This document shows positions 2,080 to 58,009 of a stretch of DNA of 58,460 nt, one piece after another. Where the stretch lies: assembly GCA_009711805.1 (NCBI GenBank), contig VEMX01000066.1, forward strand, positions 1 through 58,460, written 5' to 3'. This DNA comes from Balneolaceae bacterium (lineage in GTDB: Bacteria; Bacteroidota; Rhodothermia; Balneolales; Balneolaceae). The first letter of the stretch is position 1. The number at the start of each line of letters is the position of its first letter. The position numbers were made by a program, and so were the translations under genes. The notes under the pieces were generated by a model that made no database searches, was not told the origin of the DNA, and saw only the letters and a program-made list of their open reading frames with translations.

Positions 2080-2220
2080 CAACTCAAAACTAAAAACTAA
2101 TAACTAAAAACTGATAATTAATAACTAAACACTCAAAACTCACTCACCACTAAACACTACTAACTAAAAACTCAAAACTAATAACTATAAACTCATCACT
2201 AAAAACTAAAAACTAAAAAA
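2080..2220. repeat. Degenerate A/T/C simple-sequence repeat inside the paa operon
   Basis: The whole spacer between paaC and paaD consists of imperfect copies of ACTAAAA and AACTAATA-type 7-8-mers. On the plus strand C is the only non-A/T base apart from a single G. No other paa junction carries such a spacer. It resembles the simple-sequence arrays that border small cassettes in this genome (compare 48687-48750), so it may be the scar of an excised insert. It could also affect mRNA processing between the two genes. Confidence 0.85.
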
Positions 2221-31624: not shown

Positions 31625-33012
31625 CTACATCCTCAGCGCAACTCAGCGTTTCATCTGCGAGCCTCTGCGAGAAAGAGGGATTGAAAAAATGGCATGGGAG
31701 ATTGGTTTGGGTAGTGTAGGTTCACGCGGAGTTTCGCAGAGTAAGGCGTGGGGGGACAGAGGTTGTTTGCAGGCCTGGTAAGTACTTTTTTAATGATGGA
31801 TATTGAAGTTAATACGCTCATGCCTGCTCATACAACAACCAGATCGTTTAAAATCAACTGCTTCTTTTCCCTGGAGCAGCCTGGACAAGGGGTTGCAACC
31901 CCTTGCCGATCGTATCGAACCGGGAGATTTTCCTCTCCCCTCTCCATGGGCATTAGTCAAAAATATAAAAGCCCCATTTGAGAGGGATGGGTGAGCACGG
32001 CGAGCTAGCACGTGGCAGTCTCCCTGTTCATGGCAATGGGTGTAATCAGCGGACCTCTGCGAGAAAGAGGAATTGAAAAAATGCCGGGCAGTTGGTTTAG
32101 GTAGAGTAGGTTCACGCGGAGTTTCGCAGAGTAAGGCGCAGAGTTTCGCGGAGGGGTGGTTAGAGGTTGTTTACAGGCCTGGTGAGTATTTTTTAATGAT
32201 GGATATTGAAGTTGACACGCTCATGCCTGCTCATACGACGACCAGATCATTCAAAATCAACCGCTTCTTTTCCCTGGAGCAGCCTGAACAAGGGGTTGCA
32301 ACCCCTTGCCGATCGTATCGAACCGGGATATTTTCCTCCCTTCCTCTCCATGGACATTAGTCAAAAATATAAAAGCGCCATCTGAGAGGGATGGGTGCGC
32401 TCGGCGAGCTAGCACGTGGCAGTCTCCCTGTTCATGGCAATGGGTGTAATCAGCGGACCTCTGTGAGAAAGAGGAAATAAAAAAGGCCGGGCAGTTGGTT
32501 TAGGTAGAGTAGGTTCACGCGGATTTTCGCAGAGTAAGGCGCGGAGTTTTGCGGAGGAATGGTTAGAGGTTGTTTACGGGCTTGGTGAGTATTCTTTGAG
32601 GTAGCATTGACGTTTATCAACTTATTCTTGTCCATGTATTTCAGAATCCTCAGCGCAACTCAGCGTTTCATCTGCGAGCCTCTGCGAGAAAGAGGGATTG
32701 AAAAAATGGCATGGGAGATTGGTTTGGGTAGTGTAGGTTCACGCGGAGTTTCGCAGAGTAAGGCGTGGGGGGACAGAGGTTGTTTGCAGGCCTGGTAAGT
32801 ACTTTTTTAATGATAGATATTGAAGTTAATACGCTCATGCCTGCTCATACAACAACCAGATCGTTTAAAATCAACTGCTTCTTTTCCCTGGAGCAGCCTG
32901 GACAAGGGGTTGCAACCCCTTGCCGATTGTATGGAACCGGGAGATGTTCCTCCCTCCCCATGGACATTAGTCAAAAATATAAAAGCTCCATCTGAGAGGG
33001 ATAGGTGAGGAC
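31625..33012 (+). repeat. R3 tandem array: four ~400-bp direct repeat units, one truncated
   Basis: Each unit runs through CAGCGCAACTCAGCG, CTCTGCGAGAAAGAGG, GGTTCACGCGGA(G/T)TTTCGC, GGTTGTTTGCAGGCCTGG, ATTGAAGTTAATACGCTCAT, the palindrome AAGGGGTTGCAACCCCTT and TATAAAAGC(C/G/T)CCAT. Units start near 31629, 32050, 32455 (truncated after about 180 bp) and 32645. Palindromes lie at 31887, 32290 and 32904. The first and last units are almost identical over about 360 bp, which indicates recent duplication. Open frames inside are short, parallel the repeat and are not convincing genes. The remainder to 33258 has no gene. Confidence 0.9.
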
Positions 33013-47415: not shown

Positions 47416-48684
47416 ATGCTGGATATAAACTATATCAGAGATAATAAGGCCAAAGTTGAAGATGCAATCAGGAATAAAGGTGAAGAAGATGTCTCGGTTG
47501 TAAAGAACGTACTTGAAGTGGATGAATCCTGGAGAGAGAAGGTTCAGTTGGTGGACGGCATGCGGAACGAAAGCAATGTTAAAGCCAAAGAAATTGGCAA
47601 GCTGATGGGGCAGGGCAAAAAGGAAGAGGCCCAGGCCATTATTCAGGAAACATCAGCATTAAAGGAAAAAGTTAAAGAACATGAAGAAGCATTAAATAAG
47701 CTTAAAGGTGAACGGGATGATTTACTCCTTAAAATCCCAAATGTGCCCCATTCTTCGGTGCCTGTAGGAGCTACGGAAGATGATAATGAAGTATTTAAAA
47801 ATTGGGGCAACATCAATAAAGACGAATGGCGTAAACCCCACTGGGATATTGTAGAACGCCATGGCTGGGTAGATTTTGAACGCGGAGTGAAAGTGAGTGG
47901 CGCAGGTTTCCCTTTTTATGTGGGAGCAGTAGCACAATTACAGCGCGCTCTTATTAACTATTTCATTAATGAAGCTGCCCAAAAGGGCTATACTGAATTA
48001 CAGGCGCCCTATTTAGTGAATGAAGATTCAGCACGGGGCACGGGACAAATTCCCGATAAGGAAGATATGATGTATGTAATTCCAAGAGATGAATTATTTG
48101 CTATTCCTACCGCTGAAGTGCCGGTCACTAATTTTCATCGGGGTGAAATTCTTGCTGAAGCGGATATCCCCAAAAAATATGTCTGCTATACTCCCTGCTG
48201 GCGAAGAGAAGCCGGTTCATATGGAAAAGATGTACGCGGACTTAACCGCCTGCATCAGTTCGATAAAGTGGAACTGGTTAAAATGGTGAAGCCGGAGCAT
48301 TCGTATGAAGAACTGGAAAATCTCCGGAAGCATGCCGAAGGGTTGTTGGAAGCATTGGAGCTGCCCTATCGAACCTTGTTAATGTGTACCGGAGACATGG
48401 GGTTCACCCAGAGTAAAAAATACGACCTTGAAGTGTGGAGCCCGGGACAGCAACGCTGGCTGGAAGTAAGCTCCTGCTCTAACTTCGAAAGTTTCCAGGC
48501 ACGCAGAATGCAGCTGCGGTACCGGAATGAAGAAAAGAAAACTGAAATCGTACATACTTTAAATGGATCGGGTCTTGCTCTGCCACGGGTAGTTTCAGCT
48601 ATTTTGGAAGCCTACCAGGAAGAGGATGGAAAAGTTAGAGTGCCGGATGTACTGAAAGGGTTTATTGGAAGGGATTATTTGTAG
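47416..48684 (+). CDS. serS: Serine-tRNA ligase
   Basis: SerS charges tRNA-Ser. The 422-residue protein has the N-terminal coiled-coil tRNA-binding arm (about 25-110) and a class II core. Motif 2 is CYTPCWRREAGSYGKDVRGL and motif 3 NGSGLALPRVVSAILEAYQE; LEVSSCSNFESFQARRMQLR lies between. Complete and normal in length. A tandem repeat begins three bases after the stop. Confidence 0.97.
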   Translation: MLDINYIRDNKAKVEDAIRNKGEEDVSVVKNVLEVDESWREKVQLVDGMRNESNVKAKEIGKLMGQGKKEEAQAIIQETSALKEKVKEHEEALNKLKGERDDLLLKIPNVPHSSVPVGATEDDNEVFKNWGNINKDEWRKPHWDIVERHGWVDFERGVKVSGAGFPFYVGAVAQLQRALINYFINEAAQKGYTELQAPYLVNEDSARGTGQIPDKEDMMYVIPRDELFAIPTAEVPVTNFHRGEILAEADIPKKYVCYTPCWRREAGSYGKDVRGLNRLHQFDKVELVKMVKPEHSYEELENLRKHAEGLLEALELPYRTLLMCTGDMGFTQSKKYDLEVWSPGQQRWLEVSSCSNFESFQARRMQLRYRNEEKKTEIVHTLNGSGLALPRVVSAILEAYQEEDGKVRVPDVLKGFIGRDYL

Positions 48685-48686
48685 GA

Positions 48687-48750
48687 GTGATGAAGTGATA
48701 AAGTGATAAAGTGATAAAGTGATGAAGTGATGAAGTGATGAAGTGATGAA
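48687..48750 (+). repeat. 8-bp tandem repeat, eight copies
   Basis: GTGATGAA or GTGATAAA is repeated eight times in a row. The A/G change is the only variation. A 20-bp inverted match lies at 49223-49242, on the far side of the four-helix-bundle gene, so the two could pair. Confidence 0.97.
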
Positions 48751-48808
48751 GTAAAAATATTGTGTAAGGAATTTGCATTTTGTGGCTCTTATAAAGAAAA
48801 AAGTAGCC

Positions 48809-49216
48809 ATGACATATAAAGAATGGGAAAAATCAGTCTATCCCGAAATAAAAAATGATATAGTTTGGAAGCTGGAGGTATACAGATATGCACTTTATTT
48901 ATCTGATTTGGCTTGGTCTGATTCTTTGCAAATAATTGAACGAAAACATTTTTCATTGGCAGATCAACTATATCGTTCCTCAAGTTCGATAAGCGCAAAT
49001 ACTTCAGAGGGCTATTCCAGAATTTCTAATAAAGAAAAAGCCAGATTTTATGAAATTGCATTAGGTTCTGCACGTGAAGCAAGGGGCTGGTATTTTAAAA
49101 GCCGACACATTCTTTCTGATGAAGTTTCTACTAAGCGAGTTCAACTTATCACCCACATCATCCGGCTTATGCTGAAAATGATCACCGATCGAAGAAAAGC
49201 CCATCAATCAAAATAA
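48809..49216 (+). CDS. Four-helix-bundle protein (23S rRNA intervening-sequence type)
   Basis: The chosen ATG at 48809 (MTYKEWEKSVYPEIKN) gives 135 residues; the frame opens upstream at 48773. The pattern LYRSSSSISANTSEGYSRIS, then KARFYEIALGSAREARGWYF and a C-terminal MLKMITDRRK helix is the S23/bAvd-like four-helix bundle found in intervening sequences of bacterial 23S rRNA genes. Such proteins often lie in small cassettes outside rRNA too. Here it stands between serS and a small membrane gene, flanked by inverted short repeats. Function of the family is unsettled. Confidence 0.9.
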   Translation: MTYKEWEKSVYPEIKNDIVWKLEVYRYALYLSDLAWSDSLQIIERKHFSLADQLYRSSSSISANTSEGYSRISNKEKARFYEIALGSAREARGWYFKSRHILSDEVSTKRVQLITHIIRLMLKMITDRRKAHQSK

Positions 49217-49222
49217 AACAAA

Positions 49223-49242
49223 CACTTCATTACTTCATCACG
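49223..49242. repeat. Inverted counterpart of the 8-bp array
   Basis: CACTTCATTACTTCATCACG is the reverse complement of GTGATGAAG units (CGTGATGAAGTAATGAAGTG). It lies 6 bases past the four-helix-bundle stop and could close a stem-loop around that gene. Confidence 0.85.
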
Positions 49243-49244
49243 CT

Positions 49245-49448
49245 CTACTTATTCTTCTTAACCAGCCACATAACACCCCAGATAATTCCAATTAAGGCAA
49301 GTGCTAATCCAAATCCTCCAAGAAAAGCATAGAGCAGATAGGGGATGATGATACTTACTACAATCCCGGTGATGGCTTTGATCGGGGAAGCGGCAACCGT
49401 TCCAGCACTAAAAAGGGACCGAATCAGACGTAATAATCGAGCTAACAT
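49245..49448 (-). CDS. Small membrane protein
   Basis: The 67-residue protein has two hydrophobic segments (VVSIIIPYLLYAFLGGFG and LALALIGIIWGVMWLV) separated by only a short hinge, an amphipathic Arg-rich N-terminus (MLARLLRLIRSLF) and a KKNK tail. No motif beyond this. It precedes the four-helix cassette convergently. Family not recognised. Confidence 0.6.
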   Translation of the reverse strand: MLARLLRLIRSLFSAGTVAASPIKAITGIVVSIIIPYLLYAFLGGFGLALALIGIIWGVMWLVKKNK

Positions 49449-57194: not shown

Positions 57195-57411
57195 GAAGTA
57201 TCACATCCTTTCTTTTAAGATTAGTTCCCATGATTGGGAGCCCCATAATATACAAACTGATTTTTAGAATTGGAAAATCTATGTGCGGTTATTTAATGTT
57301 GGTGTTTGTGATACCCATTCATCACAGGTATTCTGCCCTCCACTTCGTAACTCAGTCCGATCGATTGCTCAACCCGGTCAAAAAATCGTTACGTCGGTAC
57401 ATCACAAATCC

Positions 57412-57438
57412 CACCTGGCGCAAGCGTCCGCTTGTGCC
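57412..57438 (+). repeat. Left 27-bp inverted repeat of RAYT remnant
   Basis: CACCTGGCGCAAGCGTCCGC plus seven more bases is matched perfectly by the reverse complement at 57706-57732. The core CAAGCG and CGCTTG is itself nearly palindromic, as in REP sequences. Confidence 0.95.
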
Positions 57439-57531
57439 ACCTCTGCCTGCCACCAACATACCATATAACATCCGTTAAAATGATCTGTAACGAATAGCTT
57501 GTTCACAGATCTAACTTCTAAAAAGAAACCA

Positions 57532-57666
57532 ATGAGCAGAACCTATAAATTCCTGGATCAAACTCAGGTTTACTTCGTCAGCTTTGCCACGGTCCATTGG
57601 ATATACAGCAGTGTACTTAACTACTACGGAAAACCGGGGCTGGTTGAGGTAGAACTGTGCTATTGA
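57532..57666 (+). pseudogene. Internally deleted REP-associated tyrosine transposase (RAYT)
   Basis: The 44-codon frame starts MSRTYKFLDQTQVYFVSFAT with VHWI, matching the start of TnpA_REP transposases. It then jumps to YSSVLNYYGKPGLVEVELCY, which resembles their C-terminal 'YSSARNYYGKPGLLEIE' motif. The whole catalytic middle (HUH motif and Tyr) is missing, so it is a deletion derivative. It lies exactly inside the perfect 27-bp inverted repeats, which are likely its REP partners. Confidence 0.85.
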
Positions 57667-57705
57667 TATTAAAATGTATATTTGACGATGCAATGGGTTT
57701 ATGCA

Positions 57706-57732
57706 GGCACAAGCGGACGCTTGCGCCAGGTG
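57706..57732 (-). repeat. Right 27-bp inverted repeat of RAYT remnant
   Basis: Perfect reverse complement of 57412-57438. The matching text continues a few bases outwards on both sides (AAATC and GATTT). The 57733-58009 remainder has no gene recognised. Confidence 0.95.
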
Positions 57733-58009
57733 AGATTTCAGATATCATCTTTAGGTTTTTTTTAGCGGGAAGCCAGAGCTTCTTAACAAGAATAAAACAG
57801 TTCAATAAATTTTTATTCAGCCGCCCCGCCTTCAGCTAAAATAGCTTTCGGAGAGCAGGTTTATTTGGAGGTGTTTATTGAACTTTTTCTGCGGGTAATT
57901 ACGGACCCCTAAGAATAAACAGTTGTTTTTTAGACTAAATTATATACTTTTAGCAGGCAATGACATGTTCATGAATAATGCGTTAGGGTTGCTCAATTAA
58001 AATCGAGAT

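Follow-up and report, generated by a model that had tools for sequence, protein, structure and literature searches.

A probable small mobile element downstream of serS in a Balneolaceae bacterium: an S23 gene between complementary short-repeat arms

How does a gene of the family known from 23S rRNA intervening sequences come to lie between two protein-coding genes, enclosed by short repeats of its own? This question is raised by a locus in a Balneolaceae bacterium (assembly GCA_009711805.1, contig VEMX01000066.1, positions 1 to 58,460; this whole stretch of 58,460 nucleotides is called the window below), where a compact cassette follows serS (47416..48684, plus strand; Pfam Seryl_tRNA_N and tRNA-synt_2b). 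The stop codon of serS occupies 48682-48684, and only 1-2 nt past it the cassette begins with a C-free left arm (48686..48752, plus strand), an array of AGTGATRA in 8.4 copies (TRF; 96% match, score 113). The arm is followed by a gene for an S23 protein, the 23S rRNA-IVP four-helix-bundle protein (48773..49216, plus strand; 147 aa from a TTG start, or 134 aa from the ATG at 48812), and then by a G-free right arm, CACTTCATTACTTCATCAC (49223..49241, plus strand), which is inverted with respect to the left array and matches it at 18 of 19 positions. The downstream neighbour, a convergent 67-aa ORF that is present here in many relatives, lies on the minus strand at 49245..49448, so that between the serS stop codon and the end of this ORF at 49245 the entire gap is taken up by the element.

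The right arm pairs with 48719-48737 and also with 48727-48745 (19 nt, 95% complementary). In a seed-and-extend scan of the window this arm pair scores 16.5, whereas Markov-resampled window sequence contained no inverted pair scoring at least 16. The eight-unit array that the first-pass annotation had placed before the gene is real. The inverted match of 20 bp that it reported after the gene is present as well, but measures 19 nt, and the inverted repeats said to bound the cassette are complementary without being clean on both sides, since an expanded array on the left faces two units on the right. Two other repeats were seen elsewhere in the window. One, at 31660-32980, is an apparently non-coding 403-bp tandem repeat (2.3 copies, 89%) with the palindromes CAAGGGGTTGCAACCCCTTG and CTCTGCGAGAAAGAG and CGCAGAG motifs; the other, at 57406-57738, is a strong inverted repeat of 33 nt, AAATCCCACCTGGCGCAAGCGTCCGCTTGTGCC, whose loop measures 267 nt, and it shows no heptad period.

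The encoded protein had been taken from its sequence for a four-helix bundle, and profile searches place it in the S23/IVP family of rRNA intervening sequences, with 60.5 bits against PF05635 in Pfam (cut-off 33.8) and a score of 65.4 against TIGR02436, 'four helix bundle protein' (cut-off 24). Its AlphaFold model (pLDDT 97) is a four-helix bundle whose best structural matches are the solved S23 proteins 2rld and 2gsc, and it resembles more weakly Avd, alone or complexed with reverse transcriptase (4dwl and 8ube; TM-score about 0.65-0.8). Homology between S23 and Avd has been argued before (PMC10053308), and the Avd of diversity-generating retroelements is likewise a four-helix bundle of the same fold, but neither a reverse transcriptase nor a template repeat was recognised by eye among the ORFs at 45.5-52.5 kb of the window. 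The cassette itself encodes no recombinase, transposase or reverse transcriptase, and S23 is the sole ORF of note in the loop. In close pairs of S23 genes dN/dS is 0.03-0.09, a sign of strong purifying selection, from which it follows that the protein has some role. No catalytic site is known for S23.

The same protein family and the same gene-in-loop anatomy have been described in 23S rRNA. The 23S intervening sequence of Coxiella, 428 nt long with 28-bp ends, carries GACAGAT heptads 5' of its ORF, and RNase III cleaves it in vitro (PMC4990558). In the intervening sequences with an S23 ORF of Coxiella and Leptospira, as in the cassettes described here, complementary ends form a stem that loops out the S23 gene, and in Coxiella tandem heptamers precede the ORF in the same way. 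The present cassettes differ in that they lie between protein genes and have heptad or octad arms that vary from copy to copy. The window copy lies outside rRNA, as the first-pass annotation had stated, with serS and the convergent ORF as neighbours, and no rRNA was found at seven S23 loci of the source genome (L001-L007) or at ten further S23 loci.

The window copy is one of about eight S23 loci in its genome, six of which (L001-L006) have short repeats on either side that are specific to the locus and inverted with respect to each other. A check for further copies sharing the flanks of the window cassette had been suggested; inverted repeat arms do recur at other S23 loci, but their units differ from locus to locus. 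Within an element, by contrast, both arms match. Across 91 S23 loci from Balneolaceae, the left flank scored a mean of 12.2 against its own right flank and 9.0 against those of other elements (maximum of 10,000 permutations, 10.9), and 23 loci exceeded the 99th percentile of cross pairs in the inverted orientation, compared with 1 in the direct orientation. An arm score of at least 12 was reached by 40/90 S23 genes and by 6/346 control genes from the same regions, several of these six being S23 copies dropped earlier as duplicates. Roughly half the S23 genes from Balneolaceae stay below 12 in this test, in part because flanks were trimmed close to the start codon. Of another 77 loci from named organisms, chiefly Bacteroidota but with CPR bacteria and others among them, 67 reach 12 (self 17.4, cross 9.1), and on cyanobacterial plasmids 9/10 S23 loci have arms scoring at least 16, for example with GGGAGTA, GGGAACA or TAGGGTG repeats. 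The DNA of the window cassette itself has no match in plasmids. A search for other cargo genes in heptad hairpins gave few candidates, which proved to be S23 duplicates dropped earlier or weak, chance-like pairs.

The arms share a period rather than a sequence. In 90 clear-armed elements, the match is 0.59 at lag 7 and 0.62 at lag 14, compared with about 0.23-0.35 at other lags, most of which lie near 0.27; class-wide the arms are degenerate tandem 7-nt repeats like those of STRRs, with units mostly of 7 nt and sometimes of 8 nt, as in the window copy. Left arms contain 9% C and 26% G, and right arms the opposite. One explanation would be neutral replication slippage or template switching in intergenic DNA, functionally unrelated to S23. 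Heptanucleotides are the most frequent class of long simple repeat in the genomes of many bacteria, as reviewed in PMC4679880, and frequently one of the two arms, as in the window copy, has expanded into a perfect array. However, periods 7 and 8, together with the multiple 14, are clearly over-represented where S23 is abundant and much less frequent in S23-poor samples, several having a similar GC content, and paired arms change jointly next to flanks that are still 93-95% identical, as described below, all of which makes a purely neutral origin very improbable. That a single arm can expand alone is shown by locus L061, after serS, where a perfect 7-nt array of AGGTGAG in about 11 copies stands opposite a degenerate arm. 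A role of the arms as providers of stop codons in three frames was also considered and is unsupported as their main reason (stops in every frame occur in 30% of left arms and in 24% of shuffles).

Heptad hairpins also occur with no gene in them. By loop length they are bimodal, 35 having gene-sized loops with S23 and 23 having loops below 100 nt, the gene-less hairpins having loops of 0-30 nt; five loops above 100 nt lack S23, most of them chance-like. The junction after serS, where the first-pass annotation had advised looking for an empty site in relatives, holds no S23 in any of 29 relatives, and several of them have solo hairpins there whose units differ in each. The opposite outcome, a gene fixed at this site in all relatives with no repeats around it, was looked for as evidence against a mobile element and is not what was found. 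In the paaC-paaD junction, compared at 30 loci, relatives were found to have solo hairpins with differing arms, gaps of 6-12 nt and one antisense S23 cassette. A one-armed 7-nt array of AACTAAA, about 20 copies with no S23, lies in the paaD-paaC gap of the window itself at 2081..2219 (no strand assigned), where relatives have heptad hairpins or an S23 cassette.

Such solo hairpins in convergent and intercistronic gaps, the serS gap of relatives among them, are what would be expected if the hairpins served simply as bidirectional terminators or as stems that protect mRNA, with the S23 genes as chance passengers. This explanation is improbable, because the arms are missing from control genes, gene-sized heptad loops hold S23 almost exclusively (about 3 do not), entire cassettes are gained and lost, and the hairpins follow the S23 genes. 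Random 20-kb samples gave 16 heptad hairpins in 517 kb (9/12 genomes) from genomes with at least five S23 genes, compared with 1 in 954 kb (1/25 genomes) from genomes with none or one. In 148 whole genomes of the phylum, the count of the heptad pattern in both readings, joined by hand to the table of S23 genes, rises with the number of S23 genes (Spearman coefficient 0.61, p = 2e-16; p = 6e-4 when permuted within families). Exceptions run in both directions: G174 and G179 have 337 and 135 matches to the heptad pattern and no PF05635 match, so that a partner gene may have been lost or have escaped recognition there, and G042 has 11 S23 genes and few heptads of the pattern used.

Insertion polymorphism was seen when the surroundings of paaJ were compared across eight species that belong to a single genus. 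Between paaJ and paaY, two of them (G042 and G058) have an empty junction of 3 nt, five (G036, G057, G017, G052 and G048) have an S23 cassette of 432-442 nt, and G027 has a 487-nt cassette with a different S23. At the adjoining paaI-paaJ junction, five species share one S23, G052 and G058 have another, and G048 lacks the gene. The source genome also has S23 at paaI-paaJ and paaJ-paaY (L001 and L002), and in G036 several junctions of the phenylacetate operon (L084, 1358-13664) are filled by S23 cassettes or heptad hairpins. The junction between paaZ and the next gene had been considered as a clean empty site and was set aside in favour of paaJ-paaY, since its S23-free relatives carry a different short heptad-like stretch, which makes gain and loss indistinguishable there.

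One cassette has been transferred on its own. At paaJ-paaY, the G048 cassette shares 91-92% identity with its counterparts in G036, G057 and G052, whereas paaJ is just 73-75% identical; identity climbs at the cassette and drops again past it. The S23 of this cassette shows dS of 0.30-0.49, and the adjacent paaJ is saturated (pS 0.75-0.78), so the contrast does not come from protein-level selection and the cassette moved independently. Its S23 carries an in-frame stop, and the G048 genome contains no match to the heptad pattern. Because the transfer landed in the same junction, homologous recombination with very short flanks may have been an alternative route. When empty and filled paaJ-paaY junctions were compared by eye, neither a consensus end nor a target-site duplication was seen, the ends being specific to each element, which sets these cassettes apart from transposons and MITEs. 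The suggestion of the first-pass annotation that the cassette is a mobile element is thus largely supported, with an empty junction, replacement and horizontal transfer all seen at paaJ-paaY. S23 cassettes are a widespread class that occupies operon junctions and moves between species with no visible transposase, and the window cassette is probably one copy of such a small mobile element, of about 430-560 bp, in which a single S23 gene is enclosed by two complementary arms whose degenerate repeats are 7 or 8 nt long.

The way in which these cassettes lie in operons bears on whether they act at the level of RNA. With co-directional neighbours on both sides, 116 of 133 S23 genes are sense and 17 antisense, and few lie at convergent (11, the type of the window copy) or divergent (6) sites. 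On Pseudanabaena and Anabaena plasmids, heptad-armed S23 genes were seen between cas6 and cas4 of CRISPR loci (L326 and L332). The strong sense bias, the anatomy shared with the Coxiella intervening sequence and the pairing of the cassette ends in the predicted window RNA are all consistent with an RNA-level intervening sequence, whose arms would pair in the transcript and whose cassette would be excised from polycistronic mRNA by RNase III as in 23S rRNA, with the hairpin kept by selection on RNA structure. This reading has some plausibility, at clearly less than even chance. Selection on pairing in one RNA strand should favour G-U, but mismatched arm positions are G-U in 69 cases and A-C in 75, a lack of G-U excess that copying of DNA would equally produce and that gives no sign of selection on base pairing within the sense transcript. 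Taken over its full length, the RNA of the window cassette does not exceed shuffled sequences in stability (z = -0.67), and no fewer than 17 cassettes run antisense to the operon that holds them. Cutting of cassette RNA by RNase III, as known for rRNA intervening sequences (PMC4990558), is possible but unsupported by these results.

Changes in the arms may be accounted for at the DNA level. In the genus compared around paaJ, the G017 solo hairpin at paaC-paaD departs from those of related species at four positions of the stem, every one of them matched by a change on the opposite arm, next to flanks of 93-95% identity; when all species pairs are taken together, 26 stem cells are altered on both sides, none of them via G-U. 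Fold-back copying of DNA, or replacement of the hairpin, would explain such matched changes no less well than selection on RNA. For the mobile element favoured here, a course of events may be proposed in which S23, which forms a five-fold ring in solved relatives and is Avd-like, would bind the heptad hairpin in its RNA or single-stranded DNA form, the element would be copied into a new junction by host enzymes, and slippage together with fold-back copying would renew the arms. The cassette would then be tolerated because it sits where continuity of the transcript is unimportant, between cistrons here and at helix tips of 23S rRNA elsewhere.

Other repeat families share parts of this picture. 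REPINs share a consensus sequence, and the associated RAYT is a catalytic Y1 transposase. Like them, S23 elements comprise numerous gene-less hairpins and a full-length form with one protein gene, but they have no consensus palindrome and no Y1 transposase, and their arms vary between elements. For REPIN/RAYT systems, see PMC3116915. In Nostoc, the P6b stems of the trnL intron are described as degenerate heptad stems that form a hairpin and whose motifs have repeatedly replaced one another (PMC4476775), and heptamer arrays including TAACTGA are known from Beggiatoaceae and cyanobacteria (PMC4679880). These and the cyanobacterial STRRs resemble the present arms in their degenerate 7-nt repeats and, for P6b, in the hairpin. 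The portions of PMC4476775 and PMC4679880 drawn on make no link to S23, whereas the gene-sized hairpins found here carry S23 and the number of heptads tracks that of S23 genes. A broader proposal, speculative and on balance unlikely, is that S23 drives a transposase-free mobile element whose ends would be recognised by 7-nt periodicity and pairing instead of sequence, with an Avd-like S23 ring presenting the repeat hairpin to a host polymerase; the products of such an element would then include 23S rRNA intervening sequences, cyanobacterial STRRs, the Nostoc trnL heptad stems and the solo hairpins seen in Bacteroidota.

The S23 stem-loops of rRNA, the heptamers of the Coxiella intervening sequence, the Nostoc heptad stems, heptamer arrays and the IVP genes of cas loci are each known separately. 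No paper uniting these as one element was found in the open-access text searched, and novelty is provisional. S23/IVP genes are common yet unexplained, and short heptamer repeats of bacteria, though on record for decades, have no established cause; treating the two as one mobile element joins both puzzles and provides a testable protein, hairpin, set of empty sites and horizontal transfer. Earlier reports place IVP genes within rRNA insertions in CPR bacteria (PMC11270868) and in cas operons and loci (PMC3936711), and the reported link between S23 and cas genes may be mere insertion into operons. If S23 and the heptamers do form one element, IVP genes in both of these settings would be insertions and not parts of the systems in which they lie.
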